A stretch of DNA of 64,000 nt from Antiquaquibacter soli (lineage in GTDB: Bacteria > Actinomycetota > Actinomycetes > Actinomycetales > Microbacteriaceae), in NCBI RefSeq assembly GCF_030580675.1, contig NZ_JAUQUB010000001.1:1674001-1738000 (forward strand). Reading direction: 5' to 3'. The notes under the pieces are model-generated. The model did not search any database. It was given only the letters and a program-made list of their open reading frames with translations, and was not told the DNA's origin. Position 1 is the stretch's first letter, and each line of letters starts with the position of its first letter. Positions 15,339 through 48,592 of the stretch are shown piece by piece. A program made the position numbers and the translations under genes.

Positions 15339-18317
15339 GTGCATCCAGCCCGGCTCGCGGCCCGGGGCATGGCTGCGCAGGCTCCCCTCCTCGCGGCCAT
15401 CGGGGCGATCGTGCTCGTCGTGACAGGGCTCCTGGCGGGCATCCCGCGCTTTCTCGAAGCGGCATCGACGGCGAGCGCTCGAGCCGCCCTCGAGTCGGCG
15501 GATGCCACGGACGCGGCCGCGCGCGCGCAAGTGCGGCTGTCCTCGGATGCCGCGGCGCAGTCGGCCGCGATGGACTCCGTCCTCGACCCCCTGCTCGAGG
15601 GCGTCGACGCGGAGGTGCTGCGGTCGGTGCAGTCCGACGCCGTGACGGTCGCACTCCCGGACGGCCGGGAGGCGGGCATCCGATTCCTCGCCGACCCGCT
15701 CGCCGCAGCGCGCATCGATGTCGCGGAGGGCGCCTGGCCGAGCGACGGGACGGCGCTCCCGGAAGCGCTCGCCGCCGAGCTCGGCCTCACCGTGGGCGAC
15801 GTGCTCGCCGTCGGCGACCACGAGCTGACGGTCTCGGCGCTGTGGGAGCCCATCGATCCCGGGGCGCCCGCGTGGTTCGGCACCGACACAGAGGCCGCGC
15901 TCTTGTCGGAGGCGGACCTCGTCGCGCTCGACGTGAATCCCTTCGCGGTGTGGACGCTTCTCCCGGAACTCGACTCGCTGGATGCCGCCCGGGTCGGCGG
16001 ACTCGGCGTGGCTGCTCGATCGTGGGAGGCGGCGATCCGCGCCGACTCCGAGCTCGCTCGCGGCGGGGTCCTCTACGCCGGCGGACTTGCGGATACTGTC
16101 ACCACGATCGAGCGGGCGATCGCCTCTGCTCGCGGCGTGTCCCCGCTACCGCTCGTCGTCGTGGGAGTCGTCGGCGCTATCGCGCTCGCGCAACTGACCC
16201 GGCTGCTGACGGCAGTGCGATCGGCCGAGACGCTGCTGCTTCGAGCGCGAGGGCGCTCGCCGCGGTCCGCCGCGCTCGCGGCTGCACTCGAGAGCGCCGT
16301 CATCGGCATCCCGGCCGCTGCGCTGGGCGCACTGCTCGCGGTGCTCCTTGTGCCGGGGCCCTCAGCGCTGGGGAGCGCCCTCACCGCGATCGGCGTCGTC
16401 GCCGCCGCGGTCCTCATCGCGACGGGGTTGTCGGCGGCGGCCGCCCGCTCTGCTCGAGCTCCCGGTCGCGCCGCCCTCGGAGGATACGTCGCTGCCGTGG
16501 TCCTCGCCGCGGTCGCGGCGGGTCTGGGCCTGTGGCGGCTGCGCCTTCTCGGGTCGCCGGTGATCGCGACCCCTGACGGTGGTACCGCCGTCGACGGCCT
16601 CGCCGTGCTCGCGGCCCCGCTCGGAGTGCTCGCCCTCTCGCTCGTCGCCGCCGCCGCGCTGCCGCTCGCGTTCTCCGCTGGCGAGCGGCTCGCCGCCCGT
16701 TCGCCGAGGCTCGCTCCGACGCTCATCGCCCGCCAGCTCGCGCGGCGCCCCGGCGAGTTCGCCGTACCGGTCGTGCTGACCGCCCTCGCCGTCGCCTCCG
16801 CCGTTCTCGCCTCCTCGTACTCGGCGAGCTGGGCGGACCTCACCGAACGCGCCGGAGAACTGCGCAACGGCGCCGCACTGCGCGTGCAGCTCGCCGGCGC
16901 CAGCACCGTCGGCGGTGCGGCGACCATCGCGAGCTCGCCGCGCTTCGCCCTCGACGACGCCTCGGCCGCTCCCGTCCTCGTCGCGCCGACCGAGTCCGGC
17001 GAGGACGAGGTGACCCTCATCGCCCTCGCCGGGAGCGACCTCGACGTCGTCTCGCCGCTCGGCGGAGAGCTCGACCGGGCTGCGCTCGCGGCCGCGATCG
17101 CCACGCCGAGCGCAGGGGCGGAGCTGGATGCCACCGCGACCCGCTTGTCGGTGCGGGCGAGCGTCTCGACGACACCCCTCGATCCCGGAGCACCTCTCGC
17201 CCCGCGACAGGGCGAGCTGTCGCTCACGGCCTGGGTGTCGGATGCGCAGGGTGCACTCGCGCGGCTCGCTCTCGATGACGACGGGTCGGGTGTCCTGTCG
17301 ACGGCGCTCCCGGAGGGGGTTGCCCCGTGGACGGTCGTCGCGATCGACGCGGCCGTGGCCACCGGCCCCATCCCCGCTCGGTACGCGGCCTCCGTCGAGT
17401 TCGACGACGCGGAGACCCCGGCGGACTGGGTCGTGCAGTCCGAGGCGGGCACGCCGGCCGACCCGGGAGCGGGTCTCGGCTTCGTGCTGACGGCAACGGA
17501 GCCGTCAGCACCGCTCACGGTGCGACTCATGGCCCCGGCCGGGGACTCCCCCCGCCTCGCCGTCTCGGCGGCGTTCGCCCACCGACTCGGCCTGGACGAG
17601 GGCAGCCCTGTGCGCTTGCGGTTCGCCGGGAGCGGGCTCGCCGTCGAGGGGGTCGTGTCGAGCATCGTCGCTCAACTGCCCGGTACGACGGAGGCCCTCA
17701 CCGCCCTCGTCGACCTGCGGGCACTGACCGACTCGGTTCTGCGGGTCACCTCGAGCGTGCCAAGACCCGACCAGATCTGGATCGACGCCGACGACCCGGT
17801 GGCCGCCGCCGCGGCGCTCCAGCCCGTCCTCCCGAGCGGCGCGGTGCTCACGACGGTCGAGTCGGGATCGGGTCAGGAGCTCCAGCGACCCGTGGTCGCG
17901 GCTCTGTGGATCGGGGCGGCCGGATCGCTCCTGCTCGCTGCGGCCGCCGCAATCGCGGTCTCGGTGGCTCTTCTGCGATCCCGGCGCGGTGAGACCGTCG
18001 CGCTCCGGGCGATAGGGATGCGCGACCGCGACTCCTCGACCGCGCGCGGCGTCGAGCTCGTCCTCGTGCTCGTCCTCGGCGCTCTCGCGGGCACCGCCGC
18101 GGGCCTTGTCGTCGCGCAGCTGACCGTCGGGGAGCTCGCGAGATCCGCGGTGCTGGATGCCCCGCGATCTCTCCCCGCCCCGGTGCTCCTCGACGTCCCG
18201 GCGCTCTCCGTCGCCGTCGCCGTCGTCGCGGTCCTCACCGCGGCCACCGCCGCCGTGACGAGCTCGGCAGTTCTCGCGATGGCGAGACGGTCGACCGGCC
18301 GGGAGGTGGACGCGTGA
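15339..18317 (+). CDS. Large FtsX-type ABC transporter permease (first)
   Basis: The 992-residue membrane protein has the duplicated FtsX/MacB layout. There is an N-terminal helix (about 14-33), then a large extracellular domain, a first four-helix block around residues 260-440 and a second extracellular domain. The C-terminal FtsX block (about 850-985) carries VALLRSRRGETVALRAIGM, the ATPase-facing loop. A CAGGGGGT ribosome binding site precedes the GTG start. Such permeases usually export lipids, lipoproteins or peptides, or act as mechanotransmitters, rather than import solutes. The stop overlaps the next permease (GTGA). It is the first of a four-gene operon, and the substrate is unknown. 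Confidence 0.85.
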   Translation: MHPARLAARGMAAQAPLLAAIGAIVLVVTGLLAGIPRFLEAASTASARAALESADATDAAARAQVRLSSDAAAQSAAMDSVLDPLLEGVDAEVLRSVQSDAVTVALPDGREAGIRFLADPLAAARIDVAEGAWPSDGTALPEALAAELGLTVGDVLAVGDHELTVSALWEPIDPGAPAWFGTDTEAALLSEADLVALDVNPFAVWTLLPELDSLDAARVGGLGVAARSWEAAIRADSELARGGVLYAGGLADTVTTIERAIASARGVSPLPLVVVGVVGAIALAQLTRLLTAVRSAETLLLRARGRSPRSAALAAALESAVIGIPAAALGALLAVLLVPGPSALGSALTAIGVVAAAVLIATGLSAAAARSARAPGRAALGGYVAAVVLAAVAAGLGLWRLRLLGSPVIATPDGGTAVDGLAVLAAPLGVLALSLVAAAALPLAFSAGERLAARSPRLAPTLIARQLARRPGEFAVPVVLTALAVASAVLASSYSASWADLTERAGELRNGAALRVQLAGASTVGGAATIASSPRFALDDASAAPVLVAPTESGEDEVTLIALAGSDLDVVSPLGGELDRAALAAAIATPSAGAELDATATRLSVRASVSTTPLDPGAPLAPRQGELSLTAWVSDAQGALARLALDDDGSGVLSTALPEGVAPWTVVAIDAAVATGPIPARYAASVEFDDAETPADWVVQSEAGTPADPGAGLGFVLTATEPSAPLTVRLMAPAGDSPRLAVSAAFAHRLGLDEGSPVRLRFAGSGLAVEGVVSSIVAQLPGTTEALTALVDLRALTDSVLRVTSSVPRPDQIWIDADDPVAAAAALQPVLPSGAVLTTVESGSGQELQRPVVAALWIGAAGSLLLAAAAAIAVSVALLRSRRGETVALRAIGMRDRDSSTARGVELVLVLVLGALAGTAAGLVVAQLTVGELARSAVLDAPRSLPAPVLLDVPALSVAVAVVAVLTAATAAVTSSAVLAMARRSTGREVDA

Positions 18318-20983
18318 CCGCGCCGTCGCGCGCGCGGCTCGGTCCCGCGCGCCTCGTCGTGCGCCAGGTGGCAGCGGCGCCCGCGGCCACGCTCGCCGTC
18401 GCGGCGATCGTGCTCGTGTCATCCCTCGCGGCGGCGCTCGCGCCCCGAGCGCTCGACCGCGTGTTCACCGACGAGCTGCGCTACGGCGTCAGCAGCGTCG
18501 CCGCCACGCAGCGCGACCTCATCGGTACGACGATCGGCGCCCCGCCGACCGGGTTCGAAGCGCAGCTCGACGCCCTCCGAGCAGACATGGGCGACGTGCT
18601 GCGCGCGAGCGCCGGCGCAGCGGGATTCGTCTCGAGGACTCCCGCCCTCGGAGCGATCGCGGACGCCCCGCTTCCGGACGCGCCGATCACCCTCCTCTCG
18701 GTCGCGATCGACCCAGCCGTCGCCGACCGCATCACCGTCGTCGAGGGCGCGGCGCCCGAGCCCGTGACGCCCCTCGAGTCCGGGGGTTTCGAACCGATCT
18801 CGTTCGTGCTGTCGACGGAGTCGGCCGACGCGATGCGCTGGTCGGTCGGCGAGGTGCGGACCGTGCGCGCGACGGGAGGAGCGTCGCAGCAGTTCGTGCT
18901 CTCGGGCATCGTCGAGGCGGTGGATCCCGACAGCGACTACTGGTCGGTGACCACCTCCGTCCTGCAGCCGGAGCTCTTCGACGATGGCAACAGCACACCG
19001 ACGGTGACCGCGACCGGCTTCGTGAACCCGAGCGCGACCGCGGCGGCGTGGGCGGTCATGGGGTCCCTCTCGACGACGGCCTGGTTCTCGCTCGACCCGG
19101 CCGGCCTGAGCTTCACCCAGTCGACCGCCCTCCTCCAGGATCTGCGGCAGTTCACGAGCTCCACCCACGACATCGCCGGGGACGGCCAGGAGGGCGAGCT
19201 CTCGTTCCTGAGCTTCTCGACCGGCCTCCTGCCCGCGCTCGAGCGGGCCGAGGGCCGGGCCGCGTCGACGGTCGCGGTGCTCTCGATGGCGATCGCCGGC
19301 CCGCTCGGCGTGGTGCTCGCGGTGATCGCCCTCGGATCGCGCGCGATCCTCGAGCGCCGCAGATCCGGGATCACCCTCGCGTCGGCCCGGGGTGCCTCCC
19401 CCGCTCAACTGCGTGGAGCGCTCGCCCTCGAGGGACTCCTTGCCGGTGTTCCGGCGGCGGCCCTCGGGATGCTCGGCGCCGCCCTGCTCCTGCCTGCGCC
19501 CGTCGGGGTCGAGGCGACGGTCGTACCCGTCGCGCTCGCGCTCGCCCCTGCCGTCCTCCTCGCCGCCCGTGCCCCGGCTCGGGGTCTGCGGATCGAGCGT
19601 GCCGACCTCGAGCCGGGTCGCGGCAGCCGAGCCCGGCTCCTCGGGGAGGCCGTGGTCGTCGGACTCGCCGTCGCCGCGGTGATCGTCGTCCTCCAGCGTG
19701 GCGTGGCATCCGGCGGTCCGGCGCTCGACCCGTTGATCGCCGCCACTCCCCTGCTGCTCGCCCTCGCCGTGTGCGTCGTGGTGCTCCGGGTCGCCCCGTA
19801 CCCGCTGCAGGCCCTCGCGGGCGCGCTGCGGACACGCGCGGGGCTCACCGGTTTCCTCGGAGCGACGCGCGCCGTTCGAGACCCGGCCGCGTCGGTCGCG
19901 CCGGTGCTCGCCCTCGTCGTGGGGGTCTCGGTCGCCGTGTTCTCCGGAGTGCTTGTCTCGACGATCGACTCGGGCGTCTCGAGCGCCGCCCGCGGCGTCG
20001 TCGGGGCCGACCTTCAGGTGCGCGGACCCGTGTTCGACGAGACCCGGCTCGAGGCGATCGCGAGCCTCCCCGGCGTCGCGGCGATCTCGGGCGTCGACGA
20101 CGCCGGGCCGGCCGTCCTCGCGTTCGGCGGCGATCGCCGCACCGTCACCGTCCTCGTCACCGACCTCGCGGGTCTCCGAGAGCTCCGCGGCGAGTCGGCG
20201 GTGCCCGCGGGAGCGGAGAACGGCTCCGCCGAGCCGGTTCCCGCGATCGTGTCCGCCGACCTCGCCCTCGAGATCGGCGATCAGCAGCCGAGCCTCGAGG
20301 GAGACGCGCTCGAGGTGGTGGCCGTGGGGTCGCCGGACGACGGCGTGGGCATCCCGACGAACTGGGTGATGATCGACGCCTCGGCGTCGCTCTCCGTTAT
20401 GGGGGTGGAGTTCCGGCCGCGAACGGTGCTCATCGGCCTCGACCCGGGAGCGGACTCGGCGGACGTCGCGAGCGCGGTGTCCGAGCAGAGCGGCCCCGGG
20501 GTGCTGTCGAGCGATCCAGCGTCCGTCGCCGAGGCGCTCCGAGCATCCCCCGCCGTCTCGGGTCTCGGATCAGCTCTCGTCACGGCCCTGATTCTCGCGG
20601 CGGTCCTCGCGGCGATCGCCGTCGTCATGACGGCCGTCGTCGGCGCGCGATCGAGAACGCGGATGCTCGCTCTCCTCGCCACGCTCGGCCTGCCGCCCCG
20701 CGGCTCCCGCGCGCTCGTGGCGTGGGAGCTCGCCCCCGTCGGACTCGGCGCGGTTATCGCAGGGACCGCGCTCGGACTAGCGCTGCCCTGGATCGTGCTC
20801 GGGGGCGTCGACCTGCGCCCTTTTACCGGCGGATCGCGACAGCCGACGATCGTGATCGACCCGGGCCTCGTGCTGCTCCTCGTGGGCGGCTTCGCAGCCC
20901 TCGCTGCCGTCGCCGTGCTCGTCGCGGCGTCAGTCGGGCGCCGGACGAGCACCGCGGCGGCGCTCAGGATGGGAGACGAATGA
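18314..20983 (+). CDS. Large FtsX-type ABC transporter permease (second)
   Basis: The 889-residue protein has the same overall plan as its upstream neighbour: an N-terminal helix, a large extracellular segment (about 50-300), a central group of transmembrane helices, a second extracellular segment and a C-terminal FtsX block containing VGARSRTRMLALLATLGLP. The loop SRAILERRRSGITLASARGASPAQLRGAL is a typical ATPase coupling segment. It overlaps the first permease at its start and the ATPase at its stop (ATGA). Two different permeases with two different ATPases could form one heteromeric exporter or two cognate pairs. Confidence 0.85.
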   Translation: MTAPSRARLGPARLVVRQVAAAPAATLAVAAIVLVSSLAAALAPRALDRVFTDELRYGVSSVAATQRDLIGTTIGAPPTGFEAQLDALRADMGDVLRASAGAAGFVSRTPALGAIADAPLPDAPITLLSVAIDPAVADRITVVEGAAPEPVTPLESGGFEPISFVLSTESADAMRWSVGEVRTVRATGGASQQFVLSGIVEAVDPDSDYWSVTTSVLQPELFDDGNSTPTVTATGFVNPSATAAAWAVMGSLSTTAWFSLDPAGLSFTQSTALLQDLRQFTSSTHDIAGDGQEGELSFLSFSTGLLPALERAEGRAASTVAVLSMAIAGPLGVVLAVIALGSRAILERRRSGITLASARGASPAQLRGALALEGLLAGVPAAALGMLGAALLLPAPVGVEATVVPVALALAPAVLLAARAPARGLRIERADLEPGRGSRARLLGEAVVVGLAVAAVIVVLQRGVASGGPALDPLIAATPLLLALAVCVVVLRVAPYPLQALAGALRTRAGLTGFLGATRAVRDPAASVAPVLALVVGVSVAVFSGVLVSTIDSGVSSAARGVVGADLQVRGPVFDETRLEAIASLPGVAAISGVDDAGPAVLAFGGDRRTVTVLVTDLAGLRELRGESAVPAGAENGSAEPVPAIVSADLALEIGDQQPSLEGDALEVVAVGSPDDGVGIPTNWVMIDASASLSVMGVEFRPRTVLIGLDPGADSADVASAVSEQSGPGVLSSDPASVAEALRASPAVSGLGSALVTALILAAVLAAIAVVMTAVVGARSRTRMLALLATLGLPPRGSRALVAWELAPVGLGAVIAGTALGLALPWIVLGGVDLRPFTGGSRQPTIVIDPGLVLLLVGGFAALAAVAVLVAASVGRRTSTAAALRMGDE

Positions 20984-39082: not shown

Positions 39083-39103
39083 GGCTCAAAGCTACAATCT
39101 TCT

Positions 39104-40585
39104 GTGACCTCCGAGCCCACCGACCCCGCCGCGACCAACGGCCCCGGCATCGATCCCGTCGATCTCGAGACGACGCTGCGCGTGCTCGAATCGATGGCGG
39201 GCCTCGACGAGGAGCACCCGGACTTCGTCGCGGTGCGCCGCGCCACGGCTCGCATGTTCAAAGCCGTGAAGAAGGAGCGGCGGCTCGCCCTCCGCGCCGC
39301 GGTAGCCGAAGCGGACAGGGCCGTGGTCGCCGCGACCGCGACCGGGGCACCCGATCGGATCGACGACGAGACGCGAGGCATCCCGATCTCCACCCGCACG
39401 ACATCCCCGACCGCCGGCACGCTCATCAAGTCGCGCGCGTGCTACATCTGCAAGCAGCACTACACGCTCGTCGACGCGTTCTACCACCAGCTCTGCCCCG
39501 ACTGCGCCGCCCTCAACCACGCGAAGCGGGATGCCCGCACCGACCTCACCGGCAAGCGCGCCCTGCTCACCGGCGGTCGCGCCAAGATCGGCATGTACAT
39601 CGCCCTGCGCCTGCTGCGGGATGGCGCGCACACGACCATCACGACCCGCTTTCCCCGCGACGCCGTGCGCCGCTTCACCTCGCTGCCGGACTCCGAGGAA
39701 TGGATCGACCGGCTCCGCATCGTCGGCATCGACCTTCGCGACCCCGCCCAGGTGATCGGGCTCGCCGACTCCGTCGCCGAGCAGGGCCCCCTCGACATCA
39801 TCATCAACAACGCGACCCAGACGGTGCGCCGCTCCCCCGGCGCCTACCAACCCCTCGTCGACGCGGAGCTCGCGCCGCTCCCCGACGGACCGCTGCCGGA
39901 GATCGAGACGTTCGGGCACACCAACGACGCCCACCCGCTCGCGCTCCAGCGGTCCGTGAGCTCGCACCCGATCCTCGCTGCGGCGGCCGCGCGAGCGGAG
40001 GAGCTCACCGAGCAGGCGATGGCTGCGGGGTCGAGCTCGCTCGAACGGCTCGCCGCCGGCACCGCGATCGATGCCGGCGGCCTCATCCCCGATGTCGACG
40101 ACGTCAACTCGTGGACGCAGCGTGTCGACGAGGTCGATCCGCTCGAGCTGCTCGAAGTGCAGCTCGCCAACTCCACGGCTCCGTTCATCCTCATCTCCAA
40201 GCTCCGTCCCGCGATGGCCGCCTCCCCCGCGCGGCGCAAGTACGTGGTCAACGTGAGCGCCATGGAGGGGGTGTTCAATCGCGGGTACAAGGGGCCGGGG
40301 CATCCGCACACGAACATGGCGAAGGCCGCTGTGAACATGCTCACCCGCACGAGCGCGCGCGAGATGTTCGAGACCGACCGCATCCTCATGACGAGCGTCG
40401 ACACCGGCTGGATCACCGATGAGCGACCGCACCCGACGAAGGTGCGCCTCGCCGAGGAGGGCTTCCACGCCCCGCTCGACCTCGTCGACGGCGCCGCCCG
40501 CGTGTACGACCCGGTCGTGCGCGGCGAGGCGGGCGAGGACCTCTTCGGGGTCTTCCTCAAGGACTACCGGCCGGGGCAGTGGTGA
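39104..40585 (+). CDS. SDR-family protein with N-terminal extension and zinc-ribbon-like motif
   Basis: The 493-residue protein starts at a GTG. The first ~105 residues are mostly helical. A four-cysteine motif follows, C113-x2-C116-x14-C131-x2-C134, resembling a zinc ribbon. The SDR domain starts near residue 150 with GKRALLTGGRAKIGMY, a variant glycine-rich loop. It keeps NNATQ and a serine in VNVSAMEG. The usual YxxxK reads TNMAK, so the catalytic tyrosine is not in place. The protein may be a noncanonical reductase or an NAD(P)-binding regulatory protein. Its stop overlaps the next small gene. Confidence 0.8.
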   Translation: MTSEPTDPAATNGPGIDPVDLETTLRVLESMAGLDEEHPDFVAVRRATARMFKAVKKERRLALRAAVAEADRAVVAATATGAPDRIDDETRGIPISTRTTSPTAGTLIKSRACYICKQHYTLVDAFYHQLCPDCAALNHAKRDARTDLTGKRALLTGGRAKIGMYIALRLLRDGAHTTITTRFPRDAVRRFTSLPDSEEWIDRLRIVGIDLRDPAQVIGLADSVAEQGPLDIIINNATQTVRRSPGAYQPLVDAELAPLPDGPLPEIETFGHTNDAHPLALQRSVSSHPILAAAAARAEELTEQAMAAGSSSLERLAAGTAIDAGGLIPDVDDVNSWTQRVDEVDPLELLEVQLANSTAPFILISKLRPAMAASPARRKYVVNVSAMEGVFNRGYKGPGHPHTNMAKAAVNMLTRTSAREMFETDRILMTSVDTGWITDERPHPTKVRLAEEGFHAPLDLVDGAARVYDPVVRGEAGEDLFGVFLKDYRPGQW

Positions 40586-40809: not shown

Positions 40810-41370
40810 ATGTCGCGGGCCGGAGTCGATGAGCGGATCTCCTTCGCCGCGCTCGACCTGCTGCGCAGCCGCGGTCCCTCCGCCGTGAGCGTGGAGTCGG
40901 TCGCGGCTCACTCCGGGGTCGCGAAGACGACCATCTACCGGCGGTTCGAGAACCGCGACGAGCTTCTCGCCGCCGCGGTCGTGTCGGCCACCCGCCCGAT
41001 CGACCTGCCCGAGGGCCTGAGCGCCGAGGACACGGTGCGCTGGGCGCTCCGGCACGCGCGCGACATGATCGAGAACGTCGTCGGTCGGGGTGCGCTCGCG
41101 GCGGTCATGGCCGACGGCGACCCGGTCTTCCGCGACGTGCTGCTGGGGATGATCCGCGCCTCGATCGGACCGTTGCGCCACGACCTGCGCGCCGAGGTCG
41201 CCGACGGCGAGCTTCGGGCGGACCTCGACATCGAACTCGTGCTGTCCGTGCTCATGGGCGCGGTCATCGCGGAGATGATCCGCGGGCGCCCCACCGATGA
41301 CGAGTGGGTCGAATCGGTGCTCGGGCTGCTCTGGCCCGGGCTGTCCGGCCCGGGCCGCAGGGCTCGCTAG
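40810..41370 (+). CDS. TetR-family regulator (candidate regulator of the ether-lipid cluster)
   Basis: The 186-residue TetR protein has a helix-turn-helix with VESVAAHSGVAKTTIYRRFENRDELL (about 27-52). The C-terminal domain is not similar to a known ligand class that I recognise. It ends tail to tail with the AGPS gene, overlapping by 4 bp. As the only regulator gene beside the AGPS, acyltransferase and reductase genes, it is the best candidate to bind the 29-bp palindrome at 44562-44590. That link is inferred from position only. It may respond to an acyl-CoA or other lipid. Confidence 0.87.
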   Translation: MSRAGVDERISFAALDLLRSRGPSAVSVESVAAHSGVAKTTIYRRFENRDELLAAAVVSATRPIDLPEGLSAEDTVRWALRHARDMIENVVGRGALAAVMADGDPVFRDVLLGMIRASIGPLRHDLRAEVADGELRADLDIELVLSVLMGAVIAEMIRGRPTDDEWVESVLGLLWPGLSGPGRRAR

Positions 41371-43043
41371 TAGCCCGCGTCGATGATCTTGCCGGGGTTG
41401 AAGTTCGACCCCGGGTCCGCTCCGTCGAAGAGCGCCTGCATGACCGCGACGCCCTCGGGCGAGATGTCCTCGGCGAGCCACGGCGAGTGCTCGCGACCGA
41501 CCCCGTGGTGGTGCGAGATCGTGGCATCCGTGTCGACGAACGCCTGCTGGATGGCGTTCTTGACGATGTTGTACTCCCCGAGCGGGTCGTTCTTGAAGAC
41601 GAACGCGAAGGTGAAGTACAGGCACGCGCCCGAGTGGTACGAGTGCGAGAGGTGCGACATGATCCACCCCTTCACCCCGATCTCGTCGTAGGCCTTCTGC
41701 GCGGCCGCGTAGACGTTCTTGTGCACGTCGATCAGCCGCGACCACGGTGCCGCCGTCTCGGAGACATCGCCGGCCGCACCCATGTCGAGCAGGAAGTCGC
41801 GCAGATAGGGCGTGTCGAACTTCTTCTGGTCGTAGAGGATGCCCGGCCCCTCACCGACCCCCATGCCGCCGTGCTTCTTCACGATCGCATCGGTGAGCTT
41901 CTTCTGGCGCTTCGCGTGCGCCGTGCCGCCCTCGTAGCCGATGAAGGAGATGCAGATGTCGTCGAGATTCCAGCCCTTGCGCTTCATGAGAGCCGGGAGC
42001 ACGGTCTCGGCGGTGAACTTCGAGAAACCGTGCCGCTCCTTGCTCGTCGCGAGGGTGAAGCCGGTCTCGCGTGCGTCGGAGATTCGCGTGATCGACGGCG
42101 TCGCATCCGACTCGGAGATCTCGCGCATCGCCTCGATGCCGGCGGCCCAGTTCGGGAAGAAGTAGGCGTAGATGTTGCGCTTCTCAGGGACGCGGTGCAC
42201 TTGCACGGTGACCTCGGTGATGACGCCGAGCCGCCCCTCGCTCCCGAGGATCATCTCGCGAACGCTCGGACCGCTCGACGTGGAGGGCAAGGGCCGCAGC
42301 ACGAGGGTGCCGCCGGGGCGCACCATCCGGAGGCCGCGGCAGATGTCGGCGATGTCGCCGTACTTGTCCGACTGCATTCCCGAGGACCGGGTTGCGACCC
42401 AGCCGCCGACCGTCGAGTGGGTGAAGCTGTCCGGGAAGTGACCGATGGTCCAGCCCTTCGCGTTGAGCTGAGCCTCGAGGTCCGGACCCTGGGCACCGGC
42501 CTGGATGCGCGCGAGCCCCGACTCGGCGTCGATGGCGACGACCTCGCGGAGCCGACCGAGGTCGAGGGAGATGACGACGCGCTTCTCCCCGCGGTGCGGC
42601 TCGAGGCTGCCGCCGATGTTGCTGCCGCCCCCGAACGGGATGATCACGGCGTCGGCGGCGACCGCGGCATCCACGATCGCCTGCACCTGCGCCTCATCCG
42701 CCGGGTAGACGACGACGTCGGGGCTGCGCTGGATCTGGTTCCCGCGGATGCGCACGAGGTCGCGGAGGCTCTTGCCGTAGGTGTGGATGACGCGCAGCAT
42801 GTCGTCGGTCGAGACGTGCTCGGCGCCGACGATCGCGGCGAGCTGCTTGACGAAGGCGGCCGTCGCCTTGGACTTGCCGACCTTGAGGTCGGCGAACGAC
42901 GGCTCTCCCGCGCGAGTCGCGGTGAGGAGGTCGAGGCCGACCGCCTGCAGGACGAACGGTGCGAAGCCCGGCTTGTCCTCGTGGTGGAAGCCCACGCCTT
43001 CGTTTCCCCAGCCCCACCACTTCATGTGCTTGACGGCGGTCAT
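41367..43043 (-). CDS. agpS: Alkyldihydroxyacetonephosphate synthase (AGPS) homologue
   Basis: The 558-residue FAD enzyme aligns along its length with eukaryotic AGPS. The start MKWWGWGNEG corresponds to the MKWNGWG of AGPS. PFGGGSN (136-142) is the PCMH FAD loop, DSFTHSTVGGWVATRSSGM is at 205-223, and MILGSEGRLGVITEVTV follows. YHSGACLYFTFAF and ISHHHGVG (H511-H513) match the AGPS active-site loop with its essential histidines. The family exchanges the acyl chain of acyl-DHAP for a fatty alcohol, forming the ether bond. It is third in a coupled operon behind an SDR and an acyltransferase. Related FAD-linked lactate/glycolate oxidases lack these AGPS-specific blocks. Confidence 0.86.
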   Translation of the reverse strand: MTAVKHMKWWGWGNEGVGFHHEDKPGFAPFVLQAVGLDLLTATRAGEPSFADLKVGKSKATAAFVKQLAAIVGAEHVSTDDMLRVIHTYGKSLRDLVRIRGNQIQRSPDVVVYPADEAQVQAIVDAAVAADAVIIPFGGGSNIGGSLEPHRGEKRVVISLDLGRLREVVAIDAESGLARIQAGAQGPDLEAQLNAKGWTIGHFPDSFTHSTVGGWVATRSSGMQSDKYGDIADICRGLRMVRPGGTLVLRPLPSTSSGPSVREMILGSEGRLGVITEVTVQVHRVPEKRNIYAYFFPNWAAGIEAMREISESDATPSITRISDARETGFTLATSKERHGFSKFTAETVLPALMKRKGWNLDDICISFIGYEGGTAHAKRQKKLTDAIVKKHGGMGVGEGPGILYDQKKFDTPYLRDFLLDMGAAGDVSETAAPWSRLIDVHKNVYAAAQKAYDEIGVKGWIMSHLSHSYHSGACLYFTFAFVFKNDPLGEYNIVKNAIQQAFVDTDATISHHHGVGREHSPWLAEDISPEGVAVMQALFDGADPGSNFNPGKIIDAGY

Positions 43044-43729
43044 CAGCGTCCCTTCTCTGCGTGCTCGCGCGACGGCATCGGCTGCACGGTCTCGTGGAGG
43101 CGTCGCACTTCCGCAGCGAGGCGGACCGAGAACTCCTCGGTCGATTCGCCTGTGGTCGGGGTGATCGGGGCGCCGAACACGACTGTAACGGGCAACCGGC
43201 CCCTCTTGGGCCAGTTCACGCCGCGCGGCATCGCCGTGCTCGCCCCGACGAGCGCGACCGGGATGCACGGGGTGCCGGTCGCGAGCGACAGCGCTGCGGC
43301 GCCGGGCTTGAACCGACCCATCTCGCCGTGCTTGGATCGGCCCCCCTCGGGGAAGATCAGCAGCGGCACCCCGCGCTCCAGGAGCGACCGGGATGACCCG
43401 GTCCGCTTGCCCTCGGAGTTCCGTTCGATCGCGAACGCGTTGAAGAAGAGCGTCGTCAGCCACTTCCGCCAGGCGACATCGAAGAAGTAGTCCGCCGCGG
43501 CGCCCGCCGCGAGGTATCGGGACAGTCGGCGGGGCAACCACCCGAAGATGAGCGGGGCATCCAGGTGGCTCGAGTGGTTCGCGACGAGGATGAAGGGGGC
43601 ATCGACCGAGTCGAGCCGATCGAGTCCTCGCGTCGAGACGCGCACGAGCGACCAGACGAGGGGTTTGAGGAGGCCCCGCTGCGCGACGAAGCGAACGGCG
43701 GCCACGGGCTTCGACCTGAAGCGGTCCAC
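43043..43729 (-). CDS. PlsC-type lysophospholipid/DHAP acyltransferase
   Basis: The 228-residue acyltransferase carries motif I NHSSHLD (H52-x4-D57) and motif III FPEGGRSKHG (126-132). These are the active-site and phosphate-binding motifs of the PlsC/GNPAT superfamily. The GTG start overlaps the SDR stop by one base, and its stop overlaps the AGPS start (TGATG), so all three are translationally coupled. Next to AGPS it could acylate either DHAP (GNPAT role) or alkyl-glycerol-3-phosphate (AGPAT role). Sequence alone cannot decide. Confidence 0.87.
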   Translation of the reverse strand: MDRFRSKPVAAVRFVAQRGLLKPLVWSLVRVSTRGLDRLDSVDAPFILVANHSSHLDAPLIFGWLPRRLSRYLAAGAAADYFFDVAWRKWLTTLFFNAFAIERNSEGKRTGSSRSLLERGVPLLIFPEGGRSKHGEMGRFKPGAAALSLATGTPCIPVALVGASTAMPRGVNWPKRGRLPVTVVFGAPITPTTGESTEEFSVRLAAEVRRLHETVQPMPSREHAEKGR

Positions 43730-44553
43730 TAGTCGTCCTTCCGATCCACGACGGGATGTTCGGAGCCGACCGACTGCGGGCCTGGTGCCCGTCGCCTCGC
43801 CGTCAGGCGGCGGGAGATCCACCGCACCGTGAACCGGGGCAGGTGCCGGGCAAACCACCCGAGCACCCGGTACCGAACCGTCGGTATGGAGATCACGCGA
43901 CCCCGGTCGACGTCGCGCAGCGCGAGCCGGACCACCACGTCGGGCTCCGTCCAGAGCCAGTCCGGGATGGAGCTCGTGCGCACTCCCGCCCGAGCGTGCC
44001 ACTCGGTCGAGACCCACCCGGGAAGCAGCGCCGTCACCGTCACCCCCGTGCCGTGGAGCTCGACCGCGAGACCCTGGGTGAACGCGGTGACCCAGGCCTT
44101 GATCGCGGCGTACGAGCCGGTGGCGAGGTACGTCTGCAGGCTCGAGACGTTGAGGATCGTGCCCGAGCCGCGGGGCACCATGGCGCGGGCGGCCGCGGAG
44201 GACAGCACGAGCACCGCCCGGCACATCACCTCGAAGGCATGGTCGTGCACCGCCGGATCCCCCTCGGTGAAGCCCTGGTGCACGCCGAAGCCGGCGTTGT
44301 TGATGACGACGTCGATGGGCCGATCGGGGTCCTCGATGCGCCGCGCGACGCGGTCGACGTCCGACCGGTCGCCGAGGTCGGCGCGCAACGTCTCGACATG
44401 GATGCCGCTCGCGGCATGCAATTCGGCCGCGACGGCGTCGAGGCGCTCCTCATCACGGGCGACGAGCACGAGGTCGAATCCCCGCGCGGCCAACTGCCGG
44501 GCGAACTGGGCGCCGATGCCCGAGGTGCCGCCGGTCACGAGAGCCGTTGCCAT
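43729..44553 (-). CDS. Short-chain dehydrogenase/reductase (candidate alkyl-DHAP reductase)
   Basis: The 274-residue classical SDR has TGGTSGIG (7-14), NNAG (about 85-88), serine in VSSLQ (about 137), and the catalytic Y148-x3-K152. A long basic C-terminal tail follows and may contact membranes (RWFARHLPRFTVRWISRRL-like segment). It is the first gene of the leftward operon. In the ether-lipid pathway the step after AGPS is NADPH reduction of alkyl-DHAP by an SDR (human DHRS7B), and this gene would fit that step. The role is inferred from context. Confidence 0.85.
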   Translation of the reverse strand: MATALVTGGTSGIGAQFARQLAARGFDLVLVARDEERLDAVAAELHAASGIHVETLRADLGDRSDVDRVARRIEDPDRPIDVVINNAGFGVHQGFTEGDPAVHDHAFEVMCRAVLVLSSAAARAMVPRGSGTILNVSSLQTYLATGSYAAIKAWVTAFTQGLAVELHGTGVTVTALLPGWVSTEWHARAGVRTSSIPDWLWTEPDVVVRLALRDVDRGRVISIPTVRYRVLGWFARHLPRFTVRWISRRLTARRRAPGPQSVGSEHPVVDRKDD

Positions 44554-44561
44554 GGTCGATA

Positions 44562-44590
44562 CCTTACGCTACGGGCCCCGTAGCGTAAGG
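44562..44590. promoter_or_regulatory. 29-bp perfect palindrome, shared operator of the divergent ether-lipid operons
   Basis: The 14-bp arms CCTTACGCTACGGG (44562-44575) and CCCGTAGCGTAAGG (44577-44590) flank a single central base. The element lies 8 bp in front of the SDR start and 45 bp in front of the rightward operon, in an 82-bp gap. Length and symmetry are typical of TetR-family operators, and a TetR gene sits at the end of the leftward operon. It does not look like a terminator, because both flanking genes read away from it. Confidence 0.8.
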
Positions 44591-44635
44591 CGGGTAGACT
44601 GCTCGCACAGCGACCAGGTCTCGGAGGTATGACGG

Positions 44636-45451
44636 ATGCCCGAACAGCCGGAGGCGTCCGTGGAGACGGCCGGGGGCGGGGCCTTCCCGGCGCCTCACTT
44701 CGACGTTCGCGACTTCGCGCGGACAGCCGCGGGAAGCCATCGTGAGAGGCTCGGGCTCGAGTCCTACCGCTCCGCCCGGCTCACCGACGACACGCTGCGC
44801 GCGCTGCGCTACCTGCAGATCATCGAGCGCGCGACGATGACCCACTTGCGCAGCGTGCTCGTCACCGCGACGCACAAGGATGCCCGCATCACCGCGTTCC
44901 TCGTCACGTGGGCGTACGAGAAGTACTGGATCGCCGACGCACTCGAGCAGATCATCCTCGCCCACCAGCCCGAGGGCGCGGAGGCGGACCGCTCCCCCTT
45001 CATCACGCCCGTCGAGCGCACCATCCGCGAGTCCATCGTCGCGAACATCATCGGCGTCCCGATGATCGCCGTCCACATGGCGCTCGGCACGGTCGACGAG
45101 TGGCTCACCCAGGCGGCCTACCGCCGGCTCGCCGACCTTGACGGCAACCCGCAGCTGGCCCAGACGATCGCCGAGTTCCTCGAGGTCAAGGAGCGGCAGC
45201 TCGACTTCTTCGAAGCTCAGGCCCGATTCCGGCTCACGGAGTCGCCGCGGGCCCGCTCGCTGACCCGAAAGCGGCTCGCTCGCACCCCGTGGCCCATCGG
45301 CGCGAAGGCCGAGCCGGATTCCGAGACCCGCTGGTTCCTCACCCACCTGTTCAGCGGCGCCCCCGAGGTCGTCGACGAGATCGACGCGCGCGTCGACACG
45401 CTGCCCGGCCAGTCCGGGCTGCGCCTCATCCGAAAGGCCGCCCGGCTGTGA
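44636..45451 (+). CDS. Desaturase-like diiron-fold protein lacking metal ligands (subunit A)
   Basis: The 271-residue helical protein is a paralogue of the product at 47798 (shared VHMALGTVDEWLTQAAYRRL versus VHMIWGAANEWSAVAAYNRL). When the two are aligned by eye, two of the six diiron ligand positions are kept (E64 and E155). The others are replaced: K96 and I99 where the partner has E77 and H80, and K185 and Q188 where it has E171 and H174. It should therefore not hold a diiron centre. A regulatory or structural partner of the active copy is likely. It is the first gene of the rightward operon, and its stop overlaps the reductase start. Confidence 0.8.
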   Translation: MPEQPEASVETAGGGAFPAPHFDVRDFARTAAGSHRERLGLESYRSARLTDDTLRALRYLQIIERATMTHLRSVLVTATHKDARITAFLVTWAYEKYWIADALEQIILAHQPEGAEADRSPFITPVERTIRESIVANIIGVPMIAVHMALGTVDEWLTQAAYRRLADLDGNPQLAQTIAEFLEVKERQLDFFEAQARFRLTESPRARSLTRKRLARTPWPIGAKAEPDSETRWFLTHLFSGAPEVVDEIDARVDTLPGQSGLRLIRKAARL

Positions 45452-47808
45452 CCCCAGCTCGCACGACCACCCGCTCGACTACCGCCCGCTCGGCGCCGTC
45501 CCGCTCGGCGAAGAAGACCGCGGACGCGCCCGTCCTGACGGACGAGCACGTGTTCCTCACCGGCGGGACCGGGTTCGTGGGGCAGGCGATCCTCGAGCGA
45601 CTGCTGTCGTCGCATCCGGGCACCCGCATTTCGGTGCTCGTGCGGGGCAAGGGCAGCCAATCCGCGCAGGCCCGCCTCGAGAACATGCTCCGCAAGCCGG
45701 TCTTCAAGGCCTGGATGGACCGGGTGGGAGAGGAGGAGGCCCGACGCCAGTTCGCCGAGCGGGTCTCCGTCGTCGACGGCAGCCTGAGCAACGTCGGCGC
45801 CCTGCCCGGCGATCTCGACGTCGTCATCCACTCCGCCTCGACGGTCTCCTTCGACCCTCCCATCGACGAGGCCTTCGACACGAACGTCGGCGGCGCGCAC
45901 GGCGTCTACGGCGCCCTCCTCGCGAGCGGCAGCGACCCGCACGTCGTCCACATCTCCACGGCCTACGTCGGGGGGATCCGCAAGGGGATCGTCCCCGAGG
46001 CGTCCCTCAGCCACGATGTCGACTGGCGCGCCGAGTCCGACGCCGCGAAGTCCGCCCGCGAGCGGGTCGAGCTCGAGTCGCGCCAGCCGGAGGCGCTCCG
46101 CCGACAGCTGCAGCGCGCGAAGGCCCGCCACGGCAAGACCGGCCCGCAAGCGGTCGCGCAGTTCGCCGAGGCCGCGCGCGCCGAGTGGGTGCGCGAGCGA
46201 CTCGTCGACTACGGCCGCACTCGTGCCGAGAGCCTCGGCTGGACCGACGTGTACACGCTCACGAAGGCGTTCGCCGAGCGCGCCGCCGAGGAGCTGTGGG
46301 CGGAGGCCGGACATCGGCTCTCGATCGTGCGCCCGTCGATCATCGAGAGCGCACTCCACCACCCGTTCCCGGGCTGGATCGACGGGTTCAAGGTCGCCGA
46401 CCCGCTCATCATCGCCTACGGCCGCGGTCAACTCCCGGACTTCCCCGGCCTGCCGGACTCGGTGCTCGACGTCATCCCCGTCGACTTCGTCGTCAACGCG
46501 ACGCTCGCCGTCGCCGCGCGGCCCGCCGTGCCGAAGGAGCCGCGGTACTTCCAGGTCGTGTCAGGCAAGAGCAACCCGCTCCCGTTCCACCGCATGTACG
46601 AGAACGTCAACACGTACTTCACCGCCAACCCGCTGCCCGACGAGAAGGGCGACATCCGCGTGCCGTCGTGGCGCTTCCCCGGAGGGCAGAAGGTCGAGAA
46701 GGCGCTCGTGAAGCGCGAGCGCCAGGCCGAGCGCGCGGAGCGCCTCATCGAGCGGATGCCCGCGACGCCCCGCACCCGCACGTGGCTGGACGGCGTCGTG
46801 AAGGGTCAGCACGGCCTCGCACAACTCCGCGCCTTCACGGAGCTCTACCGCGCCTACGTGCAGACGGAGATCATCTTCGACGACACCAACACCCGCGCGC
46901 TGCTCGCGACGCTTCCCGCGGACGTTCAGCGCGACGAGGGCTTCGACGTCACTGAGATCGACTGGGAGCACTACTTCCAGAACATCCACTTCCCCGCGGT
47001 GACGACCCTGACGCGCGCGTTCGGCAAGCGACCCGCCGCGAAGGCGAAGGTCACGCGGGCACTGCCCGAGCGCAGCGACGTGGTCGCGATCTTCGACCTC
47101 GAGGGCACCGTCCTCGAGTCGAACCTCGTCAAGCAGTACCTGCAGCTGTGGTCGGGAACCGTGCCGCGCAAGCGCGTCGCTCACGATCTCGCAGATTTCG
47201 CGTTCTCCCTGCGCAAGTACTGGCGGGCGGAGCGCCGCGACCGCGGCGAGTTCATCCGCACCTTCATGCGGCGCTACGAGGGTTTCAAGGTCGCGCAAAT
47301 CCAGCGCGACGTGCGCGGCTCGTTCGGCAAGGCGATGATGCGCCGGGCGCTGCCCGAGGCGCTCGCTCGAGTGCAGCAGCACCGGGACGCCGGCCACCGC
47401 ACGATCCTCGTCACCGGCACGATCGACCTCATGGTCGAGCCGTTCGTTCCGTACTTCGACGAGGTCGTGGCCGGCCGGATGCACGAGCGCGACGGCATCC
47501 TCACCGGCTTCCTCGCCGACCCGCCCCTCGTCGACGAGGCTCGGGCGGCGTGGCTGCGGCACTACGCCGCCCAGAACGGATTCGACCTCACGCAGTCGTA
47601 CGGGTACGGCGACAGCCACGCCGACCTGGTGTGGCTGCAGCTGCTCGGAAACCCGACGGCGGTGAACCCCGACATCCACCTCTACCGGCACGCGCGGGAG
47701 AAGCACTGGAACGTGGTTGACTGGAAACGCGGGGCAGCACCCGTCGCCCAGCCGCAGGACTCCGAAGCATCAGTGGCCCTCACCGAAGGAGCAGGCAATG
47801 GCGTTTGA
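45448..47808 (+). CDS. Fatty acyl-CoA/ACP reductase fused to a HAD phosphatase-like domain
   Basis: The 786-residue protein starts at a GTG overlapping the previous stop. The N-terminal half is an extended SDR of the FAR/male-sterility type. It has GGTGFVG at 39-45, STAYVGG, and the catalytic Y269-x3-K273 (VYTLTKAFAER), followed by a FAR_C-like segment (about 420-530). The C-terminal half (from about 540) is a HAD-IB domain with motif I FDLEGT (D550, E552 where D is usual), motif II VTGT and motif IV GYGDSHADL. The expected activity is reduction of acyl-thioester to fatty alcohol. The HAD domain may act on a phosphorylated lipid. Confidence 0.83.
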   Translation: MTPARTTTRSTTARSAPSRSAKKTADAPVLTDEHVFLTGGTGFVGQAILERLLSSHPGTRISVLVRGKGSQSAQARLENMLRKPVFKAWMDRVGEEEARRQFAERVSVVDGSLSNVGALPGDLDVVIHSASTVSFDPPIDEAFDTNVGGAHGVYGALLASGSDPHVVHISTAYVGGIRKGIVPEASLSHDVDWRAESDAAKSARERVELESRQPEALRRQLQRAKARHGKTGPQAVAQFAEAARAEWVRERLVDYGRTRAESLGWTDVYTLTKAFAERAAEELWAEAGHRLSIVRPSIIESALHHPFPGWIDGFKVADPLIIAYGRGQLPDFPGLPDSVLDVIPVDFVVNATLAVAARPAVPKEPRYFQVVSGKSNPLPFHRMYENVNTYFTANPLPDEKGDIRVPSWRFPGGQKVEKALVKRERQAERAERLIERMPATPRTRTWLDGVVKGQHGLAQLRAFTELYRAYVQTEIIFDDTNTRALLATLPADVQRDEGFDVTEIDWEHYFQNIHFPAVTTLTRAFGKRPAAKAKVTRALPERSDVVAIFDLEGTVLESNLVKQYLQLWSGTVPRKRVAHDLADFAFSLRKYWRAERRDRGEFIRTFMRRYEGFKVAQIQRDVRGSFGKAMMRRALPEALARVQQHRDAGHRTILVTGTIDLMVEPFVPYFDEVVAGRMHERDGILTGFLADPPLVDEARAAWLRHYAAQNGFDLTQSYGYGDSHADLVWLQLLGNPTAVNPDIHLYRHAREKHWNVVDWKRGAAPVAQPQDSEASVALTEGAGNGV

Positions 47809-48592
47809 TATCGACAAGTACACCGCGACGTCGGTGAGCGTGGCGTGGCAGGACCTCGACTTCGACGAGTTCGAGTCGAACCCGCTGCCCGAGTCGACGC
47901 TGCGCAGCCTGCGTTACATGTGCGACATCGAGTACCACACGGTCTGCTACCTCCGCGACCTTCTCGTCACGCCCTCCCACAAGGAGGCCGACGTGAGCGC
48001 CTTCATGACGATGTGGAACCGTGAGGAGTTCTGGCACGGCGAGGCTCTCGCCGCCGTCCTCGGCAAGCACGGCGTCGTCGTCGACTTCGACCAGCTGAAG
48101 GCCACCCGACTCAAGCTCGGCTGGAAGGACCGCCTCGACCCGATCAAGCAGTCGCTGCTGGGCAACATCGTGGGCAAGGACTTCATCGCCGTCCACATGA
48201 TCTGGGGCGCGGCCAACGAGTGGTCTGCCGTCGCGGCGTACAACCGCCTTGCCGACCTCGAGGGCCACCCCGTGCTCGCCGAGCTGCTGCGCCGCATCGC
48301 CAAGCAGGAGGCCCGGCACGTCGCGTTCTACGCGACCCAGGCTCGCGAGCGGCTCGCGAAGAGCAAGAAGGCCCAGGTGCTCGCGCGCTTCGCCCTCAAG
48401 AACGCGTGGGGCCCCGTCGGGTCCAGCGTCATGGAGCCCGAGGAGGTCACCCACGTGATGGGCCACCTCTTCGCCGGCGACGAGGGGCTGCGCGAGATCC
48501 GCAAGCTCGACGAGCACATCTCCCGGATGCCCGGCCTCGAGGGACTCACGATCGTGGAGACCTCGATGAAGAAGTACGGGGTCGCCGCCTAG
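47798..48592 (+). CDS. Desaturase-like diiron protein with complete ligand set (subunit B)
   Basis: The 264-residue protein starts at the ATG at 47798 (GAAGGAG just upstream), overlapping the reductase C-terminus by 11 bp. It shows the spacing of acyl-ACP desaturase diiron ligands: E45, E77-x2-H80 in EEFWHGEAL, E141 in NEW, and E171-x2-H174 in EARHVAF. The plant enzyme has the same Glu, ExxH, Glu, ExxH pattern. Oxygen-dependent modification of an acyl or alkyl chain is a likely role. Overall similarity to known desaturases is low, so the substrate is unproven. It is the last gene of the rightward operon. Confidence 0.8.
   Translation: MAFDIDKYTATSVSVAWQDLDFDEFESNPLPESTLRSLRYMCDIEYHTVCYLRDLLVTPSHKEADVSAFMTMWNREEFWHGEALAAVLGKHGVVVDFDQLKATRLKLGWKDRLDPIKQSLLGNIVGKDFIAVHMIWGAANEWSAVAAYNRLADLEGHPVLAELLRRIAKQEARHVAFYATQARERLAKSKKAQVLARFALKNAWGPVGSSVMEPEEVTHVMGHLFAGDEGLREIRKLDEHISRMPGLEGLTIVETSMKKYGVAA

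Follow-up and report, generated by a model that had tools for sequence, protein, structure and literature searches.

The gene cluster considered here occupies positions 40810-48592 of a 64,000-nucleotide (nt) stretch of Antiquaquibacter soli DNA, hereafter called the window, and one of its closest described counterparts is the ether-lipid system of Myxococcus xanthus (MXAN_1676-1674, elbA-E and CarF; PMC9131029; here and below, cited papers are represented by excerpts of their text). That obligate aerobe makes both alkyl and vinyl ethers and, like the present cluster, has a homologue of alkyl-dihydroxyacetone-phosphate (alkyl-DHAP) synthase (AGPS), a fatty acyl reductase (FAR) domain, an acyltransferase and a HAD protein in operons, together with NAD-dependent epimerase/dehydratase proteins. 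The differences lie in gene fusion and in the desaturase. The FAR domain of M. xanthus is joined to an acyltransferase or to ACS/ACP/AT domains, with HAD as a separate protein, and its vinyl ethers are made by the membrane protein CarF (PMC9131029); the present cluster has a FAR-HAD fusion and a ferritin-fold pair, and the CarF family is absent from all eight cluster genomes searched. The animal route (FAR1, GNPAT, AGPS, AGNPR/PexRAP and PEDS1; PMC9131029) has candidate counterparts here for fatty alcohol formation, DHAP acylation, alkyl exchange and reduction, but its desaturase, PEDS1, is a membrane protein of the histidine-box type with ethanolamine lipids as substrate, while the candidate here is a Glu/His diiron protein; the lipids listed for relatives are phosphatidylglycerol, cardiolipin and glycolipids (PMC5945732 among the sources). 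The anaerobic PlsA/PlsR system (PMC9702350) also produces bacterial plasmalogens, with a TetR-type regulator beside pls in facultative species, but it reduces the ester of a finished phospholipid, and the Pfam family searched for on its account, PF09989, is found in none of the eight genomes. The acyl carrier protein (acyl-ACP) desaturases (FA_desaturase_2; plant stearoyl-ACP desaturase, Mycobacterium tuberculosis DesA2), finally, share their fold and six diiron ligands with one of the cluster proteins, DI2, which differs from them in having a ligand-less paralogue as partner, in its ether-lipid gene setting, and in an identity of 13-18%.

The cluster consists of two divergent operons of overlapping genes, SDR-PlsC-AGPS on the - strand and DI1-FAR/HAD-DI2 on the + strand, with a palindrome between them. 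The start codons of the seven genes were chosen using homology and overlap, and the features are as follows.

40810-41370, + strand: TetR-family repressor, 186 amino acids (aa); PF00440 (TetR_N) E 5e-12, PF16859 E 2e-10
41367-43043, - strand: AGPS, alkyl-DHAP synthase homologue, 558 aa; FAD_binding_4 and FAD-oxidase_C, phmmer, tree and active-site columns
43043-43729, - strand: PlsC-type acyltransferase, 228 aa; PF01553 E 3.8e-18, sequence contains NHSSHLD, an HX4D-type motif
43729-44553, - strand: SDR oxidoreductase, 274 aa; PF00106 (adh_short) E 5e-42
44562-44590, no strand: palindrome, 29 bp, proposed TetR operator; perfect arms, core CGCTACG-N5-CGTAGCG
44636-45451, + strand: DI1, ligand-less acyl-ACP-desaturase-like paralogue, 271 aa; AlphaFold model, fold and ligand columns
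45448-47808, + strand: FAR-HAD fusion, 786 aa; PF07993 (NAD_binding_4) E 7.5e-48, PF12710 (HAD) E 6e-31
47798-48592, + strand: DI2, acyl-ACP-desaturase-like diiron protein, 264 aa; PF03405 E 5e-5, six ligands and fold

Within the operons the overlaps are 1 nt (SDR/PlsC), 1 nt (PlsC/AGPS), 4 nt (DI1/FAR) and 11 nt (FAR/DI2), and the TetR gene, at the tail of the locus, is convergent with AGPS and overlaps it by 4 nt. A first-pass annotation made from the sequence of the window had described an AGPS-type FAD enzyme, a PlsC-type acyltransferase and an SDR in one coupled operon, a single 29-bp palindrome between the operons and a TetR gene at the tail, all of which agree with the Pfam matches, overlaps and coordinates above; it had also placed two diiron-fold proteins on either side of FAR-HAD, which holds for their position and fold, although only DI2 keeps the diiron ligands. 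An NCBIfam search of the seven proteins gave no family above its cut-off.

The six-gene system is real and conserved, and it is probably TetR-regulated. Ether-lipid synthesis is the best reading of it by a wide margin, and the core genes, judged by the reactions that their homologies predict, very probably carry it out. The explanation of the whole locus that we favour, and consider reasonably likely, is a predicted aerobic DHAP-based ether-lipid pathway under one TetR regulator in which DI2/DI1 would make the vinyl ether; for this last assignment, that DI2/DI1 is a vinyl-ether desaturase, the chances appear about even.

The comparison of the AGPS homologue with solved structures by phmmer gives E 2.4e-114 (386 bits) for 2uuu, the Dictyostelium alkyl-DHAP synthase, and E 3.9e-81 (277 bits) for 4bby, the guinea-pig alkyl-DHAP synthase, against only 83 bits (E 2.6e-22) for D-lactate dehydrogenase (D-LDH). 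In a maximum-likelihood tree of 32 rows (20 cluster-type sequences, 5 family paralogues, 2 eukaryotic AGPS and 5 GlcD or D-LDH), a 99/99 branch separates an AGPS side, containing the cluster sequences, the two eukaryotic enzymes and the actinobacterial paralogues, from GlcD/D-LDH; the program flagged long branches (a D-LDH fragment and the two eukaryotic AGPS), so the exact sister group and the nearest eukaryotic AGPS are unsure. The active-site residues of guinea-pig AGPS, which we take to be R419, R515, Y578, H615, H616 and H617, fall in columns that are identical in all 20 cluster AGPS and correspond to R320, R415, Y476 and H511-513 in the window. Equivalents of R515 and H615 are missing from four GlcD rows, which share the remaining columns, so that those columns do not discriminate. 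The cluster AGPS is thus grouped with proven alkyl-DHAP synthases and not with GlcD/D-LDH, and alkyl-DHAP synthase activity is predicted for it; the first-pass annotation had held that a place within the glycolate/lactate oxidases would tell against ether-lipid synthesis, and such an identity is ruled out by the bit scores, the 99/99 split and the active-site columns. A second AGPS-like subfamily, 35-41% identical, occurs in other Microbacteriaceae genomes (L220-L224, from G408, G082, G036, G232 and G083, and also G160, G344 and G287) that have no FAR-HAD match; the five members read keep the AGPS active-site columns.

The nearest solved structure to the FAR domain is the fatty acyl-CoA reductase 7eoz (E 5.4e-47, residues 30-518), and this similarity, together with the NAD_binding_4 match, places FAR-HAD with the fatty acyl-CoA reductases of the Male sterility family, its C-terminal Sterile domain being weak (31.9 bits against a cut-off of 35.4). 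The SDR, whose best NCBIfam model is mycolate reductase (156 bits, under the cut-off of 380), is a candidate acyl/alkyl-DHAP reductase, and the PlsC-type protein may acylate DHAP or 1-alkyl-glycerol-3-phosphate (1-alkyl-G3P). In two relatives (L048:11501-13744 in g15, the Subtercola group, and L057:4541-7276 in g41) an extra frame of 747-911 aa lies between FAR-HAD and DI2; its sole Pfam domain is a C-terminal acyltransferase, making it a candidate second acyltransferase of the pathway.

The order of the genes is widely conserved. A first set of 30 loci was chosen by DI match (29 of them each represent a different further genus of the family and one comes from another family, with three more short, cut loci excluded from the count), and AGPS-PlsC-SDR is divergent from DI1-FAR/HAD-DI2 in 26 of them; the exceptions are L052, where the parts lie apart, L053 and L074, which have DI1-DI2 only, and L076, which has only a DI2-like gene. 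In a second set, the best 80 of 161 loci with DI1 relatives in named genomes, about 13 of which are common to both sets, the six genes stand in the window's order in 73, with AGPS or FAR split in L095, L110, L113 and L137 and cut in L104, L136 and L137. The exceptions here are L127 and L144, which are interrupted by contig ends; L111, with FAR-HAD near DI1-DI2; L119, L123 and L146 (Agromyces), with DI1-DI2 only within the stretch read; and L138, where SDR-AGPS-DI1-FAR/HAD-DI2 are all on one strand and AGPS scores like the paralogue type. The full set is also found in Streptomyces and Actinacidiphila loci (L125, L134, L139 and L156). A synteny survey had been proposed in the first-pass annotation, and the order kept in these two sets, above all in 26 of the 30 DI-matched loci, indicates that the cluster is not due to chance.

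The loci with DI1-DI2 only, taken together with L225 (genome G119), where FAR-HAD faces SDR-PlsC-AGPS without DI1 or DI2, indicate that the system is built of two modules, the ether core and DI1-DI2, which can occur apart. The lone pairs (L053, L074, L119, L123 and L146) thus represent a second setting for DI1-DI2; genes that look by eye like MsrA/MsrB lie near the pair in L074 and L123, with a flavin reductase as well in L074. The exceptional locus L138 (4142-10910), from a metagenome genome and with a more distant AGPS-like protein, seems to have brought the same functions together independently.

Co-occurrence was counted across 398 Microbacteriaceae genomes. FAR-HAD (E <= 1e-60) is present in 117 genomes and 30 of 85 genera, and AGPS orthologues, counted down to E <= 1e-130 (the genome ranked after them stands at 5e-105), in 116; both are present in 116 genomes, FAR only in 1 (G125, where FAR lies close to a contig end), AGPS only in 0, and neither in 281. 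DI matches (E <= 1e-10) occur in 134 genomes and 32 of 85 genera, or in 125 genomes once nine weak matches of genus g53 are dropped. FAR without DI is found in one genome (G119) and DI without FAR in nine (G044, G076, G098, G120, G160, G229, G244, G331 and G361), among which G160 carries a 39% AGPS paralogue. DI1 is present in 9 of the 13 genomes of the window's genus, its own included, and class-wide the DI1 profile matches 37 of 345 genomes and 14 of 127 genera, and in 26 of these 37 there is just one match, similar in score to the window's DI2 and so probably DI2-like. Gene order and co-occurrence together support the view that the genes belong to one pathway.

DI2 matches the Pfam family FA_desaturase_2 (PF03405) with 22.7 bits at a cut-off of 22.7, Rubrerythrin also being borderline; DI1 has no Pfam match, and neither protein matches PF10520 (CarF/TMEM189/PEDS1) at E <= 10. 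The AlphaFold models have predicted local distance difference test (pLDDT) values of 84 for DI2 and 90 for DI1. The best Foldseek match of DI2 is 7t63, a delta-6 acyl-ACP desaturase (E 2.2e-3), and on realignment to folds from the PDB its top eight matches are plant acyl-ACP desaturases (Z 16.8-17.6; for the stearoyl-ACP desaturase fold, Z 17.6, root-mean-square deviation 3.4 and 230 aligned residues), followed lower down by DesA2 (Z 15.6) and R2lox (Z 15.1). For DI1, Foldseek puts R2lox at first rank (E 0.03), while realignment instead ranks the stearoyl-ACP desaturases first (Z 17.6). The six ligands of DI2, E45, E77, H80, E141, E171 and H174 (E..ExxH..E..ExxH), are present in 30 of 30 sequences, whereas none of 29 DI1 sequences keeps all six: in every one E77 is replaced by K or R, H80 by I, L, M or V, and E171 by K, R or Q. 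By its sequence and modelled fold DI2 is an acyl-ACP-desaturase-like diiron protein and DI1 is its ligand-less paralogue; that DI1 might be a second diiron enzyme is ruled out by the loss of ligands. The metal-free beta subunits of toluene and phenol hydroxylases are comparable to DI1.

The known vinyl-ether enzymes were searched for in eight cluster genomes: that of the window, Subtercola endophyticus, Agreia Leaf210, Frigoribacterium faeni AS3.2, Frondihabitans sucicola, Glaciihabitans tibetensis, G030 and G058. Five of the eight come from genera with reported dimethyl acetals or a proxy peak, though not all are the strains that were measured. PF10520 matches none of the eight, nor any control in the same search, and it matches 2 of 100 Actinomycetota in a separate search; PF09989, which we take to be the domain of PlsA/PlsR, also matches none of the eight, against 4 of 14 controls. 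BcrAD_BadFG is found in all eight but in 10 of the 14 controls too, and is hence uninformative. A CarF- or PF09989-type enzyme as the maker of the vinyl ether is therefore rejected for these genomes; with these two families set aside, DI2/DI1 is the best-placed candidate for that step.

The lipid chemistry that bears on the cluster comes from literature on relatives and not from the window's own species. Four Subtercola species contain i-16:0, a-15:0, a-17:0 and minor dimethyl acetals at about 21-29% of peak area (PMC5945732), and dimethyl acetals were identified by gas chromatography-mass spectrometry (GC-MS) in S. boreus and S. frigoramans (PMC7472656). In Agreia, the iso-15:0 dimethyl acetal is given as <=4% in the text of PMC5945732, and in Frondihabitans dimethyl acetals are said in that paper's excerpt to be absent, 14:0 2-OH being a major acid. 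This second compound is relevant because a peak named 14:0 2-OH by the MIDI system in Kineococcus was shown by GC-MS to be the anteiso-15:0 dimethyl acetal, and was said to indicate plasmalogens (PMC7472656); the peak occurs only in some Kineococcus strains (PMC7601052). 2-OH-14:0 is listed for S. boreus, S. vilae, S. frigoramans and S. lobariae and not for S. endophyticus (PMC9287328); 14:0 2-OH with the anteiso-15:0 aldehyde or dimethyl acetal for F. faeni and F. adelgis and not for F. endophyticum or F. salinisoli (PMC12823222); and 14:0 2-OH at 17.0% for F. faeni and 4.2% for G. tibetensis, with traces in Lacisediminihabitans profunda and Lysinibacter cavernae (PMC7033078).

The genomes agree with this chemistry in several genera. 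All ten genomes of the Subtercola group (g15, which includes S. endophyticus) have the DI pair, AGPS and FAR, a match that holds at the level of the genus, and the cluster is carried by Agreia bicolorata and A. pratensis (L077, L079), F. faeni (L099, L116), G. tibetensis (L084) and Frondihabitans (L095, L107, L109). Three family-wide searches found no DI, FAR or AGPS orthologue in L. profunda (G208). Rhodoluna lacicola, whose GC-MS table as excerpted is without dimethyl acetals, has no DI, AGPS or FAR match (G029), but its genome is streamlined and makes a weak control.

The palindrome at 44562-44590 has the sequence CCTTACGCTACGGG-C-CCCGTAGCGTAAGG, two perfect 14-nt arms round one base. Its conservation was evaluated in 110 loci, the window included, of which 100 with a divergent SDR/DI1 gap of <=400 bp were compared and 10 dropped. 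The core CGCTACG-N5-CGTAGCG, allowing <=1 mismatch, lies within the gap in 24 of 25 TetR-bearing loci (22 exact), the exception being L057, whose TetR is on the AGPS strand. Among 75 loci with no detected TetR the exact core is found in one, L137, where the contig (6.6 kb) stops within AGPS and so leaves the TetR position out of view; eight others have a one-mismatch core elsewhere in the locus, and duplicate copies of the same contig account for 12 of the 75 and 1 of the 25. In the window's own genome there is a single exact core; the closest other sites differ from it at three positions, and a control pattern yields more such sites. Chance as the origin of the palindrome is ruled out by the perfect arms, its uniqueness in the genome and the linkage to TetR, and many relatives lack both TetR and operator. 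TetR appears to be dedicated to this locus, where it would regulate both operons, presumably as a repressor. The exact core is present a second time, outside the SDR/DI1 gap, at L066:15053 and L141:1323; the former lies within the extent of the TetR reading frame and perhaps reflects autoregulation.

In the pathway that we favour, the FAR domain would reduce an acyl thioester to a fatty alcohol, PlsC or a housekeeping acyltransferase would acylate DHAP, and AGPS would exchange the acyl chain for the fatty alcohol to give 1-alkyl-DHAP, which the SDR would reduce to 1-alkyl-G3P for the normal route to phosphatidylglycerol, cardiolipin or glycolipids, with the HAD domain dephosphorylating a lipid phosphate. 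The 1'-alkenyl (vinyl ether) bond would then be introduced with O2 by DI2, whose homologous partner DI1 would not itself be catalytic, and the resulting plasmalogens would show up as dimethyl acetals in fatty-acid analyses. TetR would hold both operons off from the single palindrome until some signal frees it. The first-pass annotation had proposed that the cluster makes alkyl-ether glycerolipids in an aerobe, with the diiron pair adding an O2-dependent step. The AGPS tree, gene order, co-occurrence and the dimethyl acetals of relatives support the predicted ether-lipid product, but this product likely includes a vinyl-ether lipid too, and the pair is one protein with intact ligands and one ligand-less paralogue.

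The main alternative, unlikely but well ahead of the others, is that the core makes saturated alkyl-ether lipids while the substrate of DI2/DI1, for desaturation or hydroxylation, is an ordinary acyl or alkyl chain, the dimethyl acetals coming from another enzyme. The closeness of the DI2 fold to the stearoyl-ACP desaturases suits this view, as do the separability of the modules in G119 (L225), which has FAR-HAD, SDR, PlsC and AGPS without DI1/DI2, and the DI pairs that occur apart from the core; yet FAR-HAD stands between DI1 and DI2 in 26 of the 30 loci of the first set and 73 of the 80 of the second, and the candidate sources of the acetals, PF10520 and PF09989, are missing from all eight cluster genomes, of which five belong to genera with dimethyl acetals or the proxy peak. 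It is improbable that the AGPS-like protein is some other FAD oxidoreductase, that no ether lipid is made, and that the acetals of relatives are unrelated in origin: AGPS homologues are annotated in actinobacteria for which, to our knowledge, ether lipids are not known, and three strains described below are discordant, but all AGPS active-site columns are kept in 20 of 20 sequences, two of them being absent from GlcD, FAR pairing is near-perfect, and the cluster agrees with the genera reported to have dimethyl acetals. Least probable by a little is a cyanobacteria-like alkane route, in which FAR gives an aldehyde that DI2 deformylates while AGPS, PlsC and SDR serve otherwise, for although the aldehyde-deformylating diiron protein 6d9f shares the fold (Z 14.6) and the FAR and DI genes overlap within one operon, AGPS and the DI pair are equally tightly linked to FAR (116 of 117 each), L225 retains FAR and AGPS without DI, and the stearoyl-ACP desaturases score about 3 Z units above 6d9f.

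Several observations weigh against the assignment of the vinyl-ether step, or of the pathway as a whole. Foldseek gives no PDB match at E <= 0.001 for either DI protein, and other ferritin-like folds lie within 2-3 Z units of the desaturases; since helical bundles score Z 13-14 through their arrangement alone, the fold by itself cannot pick the reaction. The DI pair occurs without a FAR or AGPS orthologue in nine genomes (g33, g65 and g87), which implies that it is not tied to ether lipids alone, and the genomes are related, so that co-occurrence counts such as the 116 with both FAR and AGPS are not independent events. On the chemical side, the use of 14:0 2-OH as a proxy for dimethyl acetals is an extrapolation, and the table of PMC5945732 gives Agreia as not detected for the major dimethyl acetals despite the <=4% in its text. 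F. endophyticum strain AS3.20 carries the cluster (L102), yet the excerpt of PMC12823222 reports no 14:0 2-OH or dimethyl acetal for the species; S. endophyticus carries it, yet 2-OH-14:0 was undetected in a profile dominated by summed feature 8, with dimethyl acetals unmentioned in the excerpt (PMC9287328). Salinibacterium metalliresistens (L142) has the cluster with TetR, akin to the window, and three ordinary fatty acids make up 94.1% of its profile, the excerpted main text being without dimethyl acetals; TetR repression in standard media is a possible reason in this case.

Elsewhere in the window, two large FtsX-like permease frames followed by an ABC ATPase frame (15339-20983) appear ordinary by eye, and a strong AT skew at 16-20 kb coincides with the permease frames. 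Judged by eye, a long frame just upstream of TetR, at about 39100-40585, combines a cysteine-rich region resembling a zinc ribbon with an SDR-like domain.

Plasmalogens are documented above all in animals and in anaerobic bacteria. A review calls myxobacteria exceptional among aerobic bacteria for having plasmalogens (PMC9131029, as excerpted), yet four aerobic Subtercola species are reported with dimethyl acetals at about 21-29% of the fatty-acid peak area (PMC5945732). A literature search, with subscription journals and supplements outside its scope, recognised no paper that links the cluster to ether lipids or assigns genes to the Subtercola acetals, and novelty is unproven. The cluster provides a concrete gene set, a candidate new type of desaturase and a regulator with a defined operator, which can be tested in culturable strains. 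We put forward tentatively, at slightly less than even chances, that DI2/DI1 is a third solution to the plasmalogen vinyl ether, an active subunit derived from acyl-ACP desaturases and a dead paralogue working with AGPS and FAR in aerobic Actinomycetota. If this is true, the dimethyl acetals reported for Subtercola, Agreia and Frigoribacterium would be explained by DI2/DI1, and plasmalogen aldehydes would have been misidentified as 14:0 2-OH in many descriptions of actinobacterial species.

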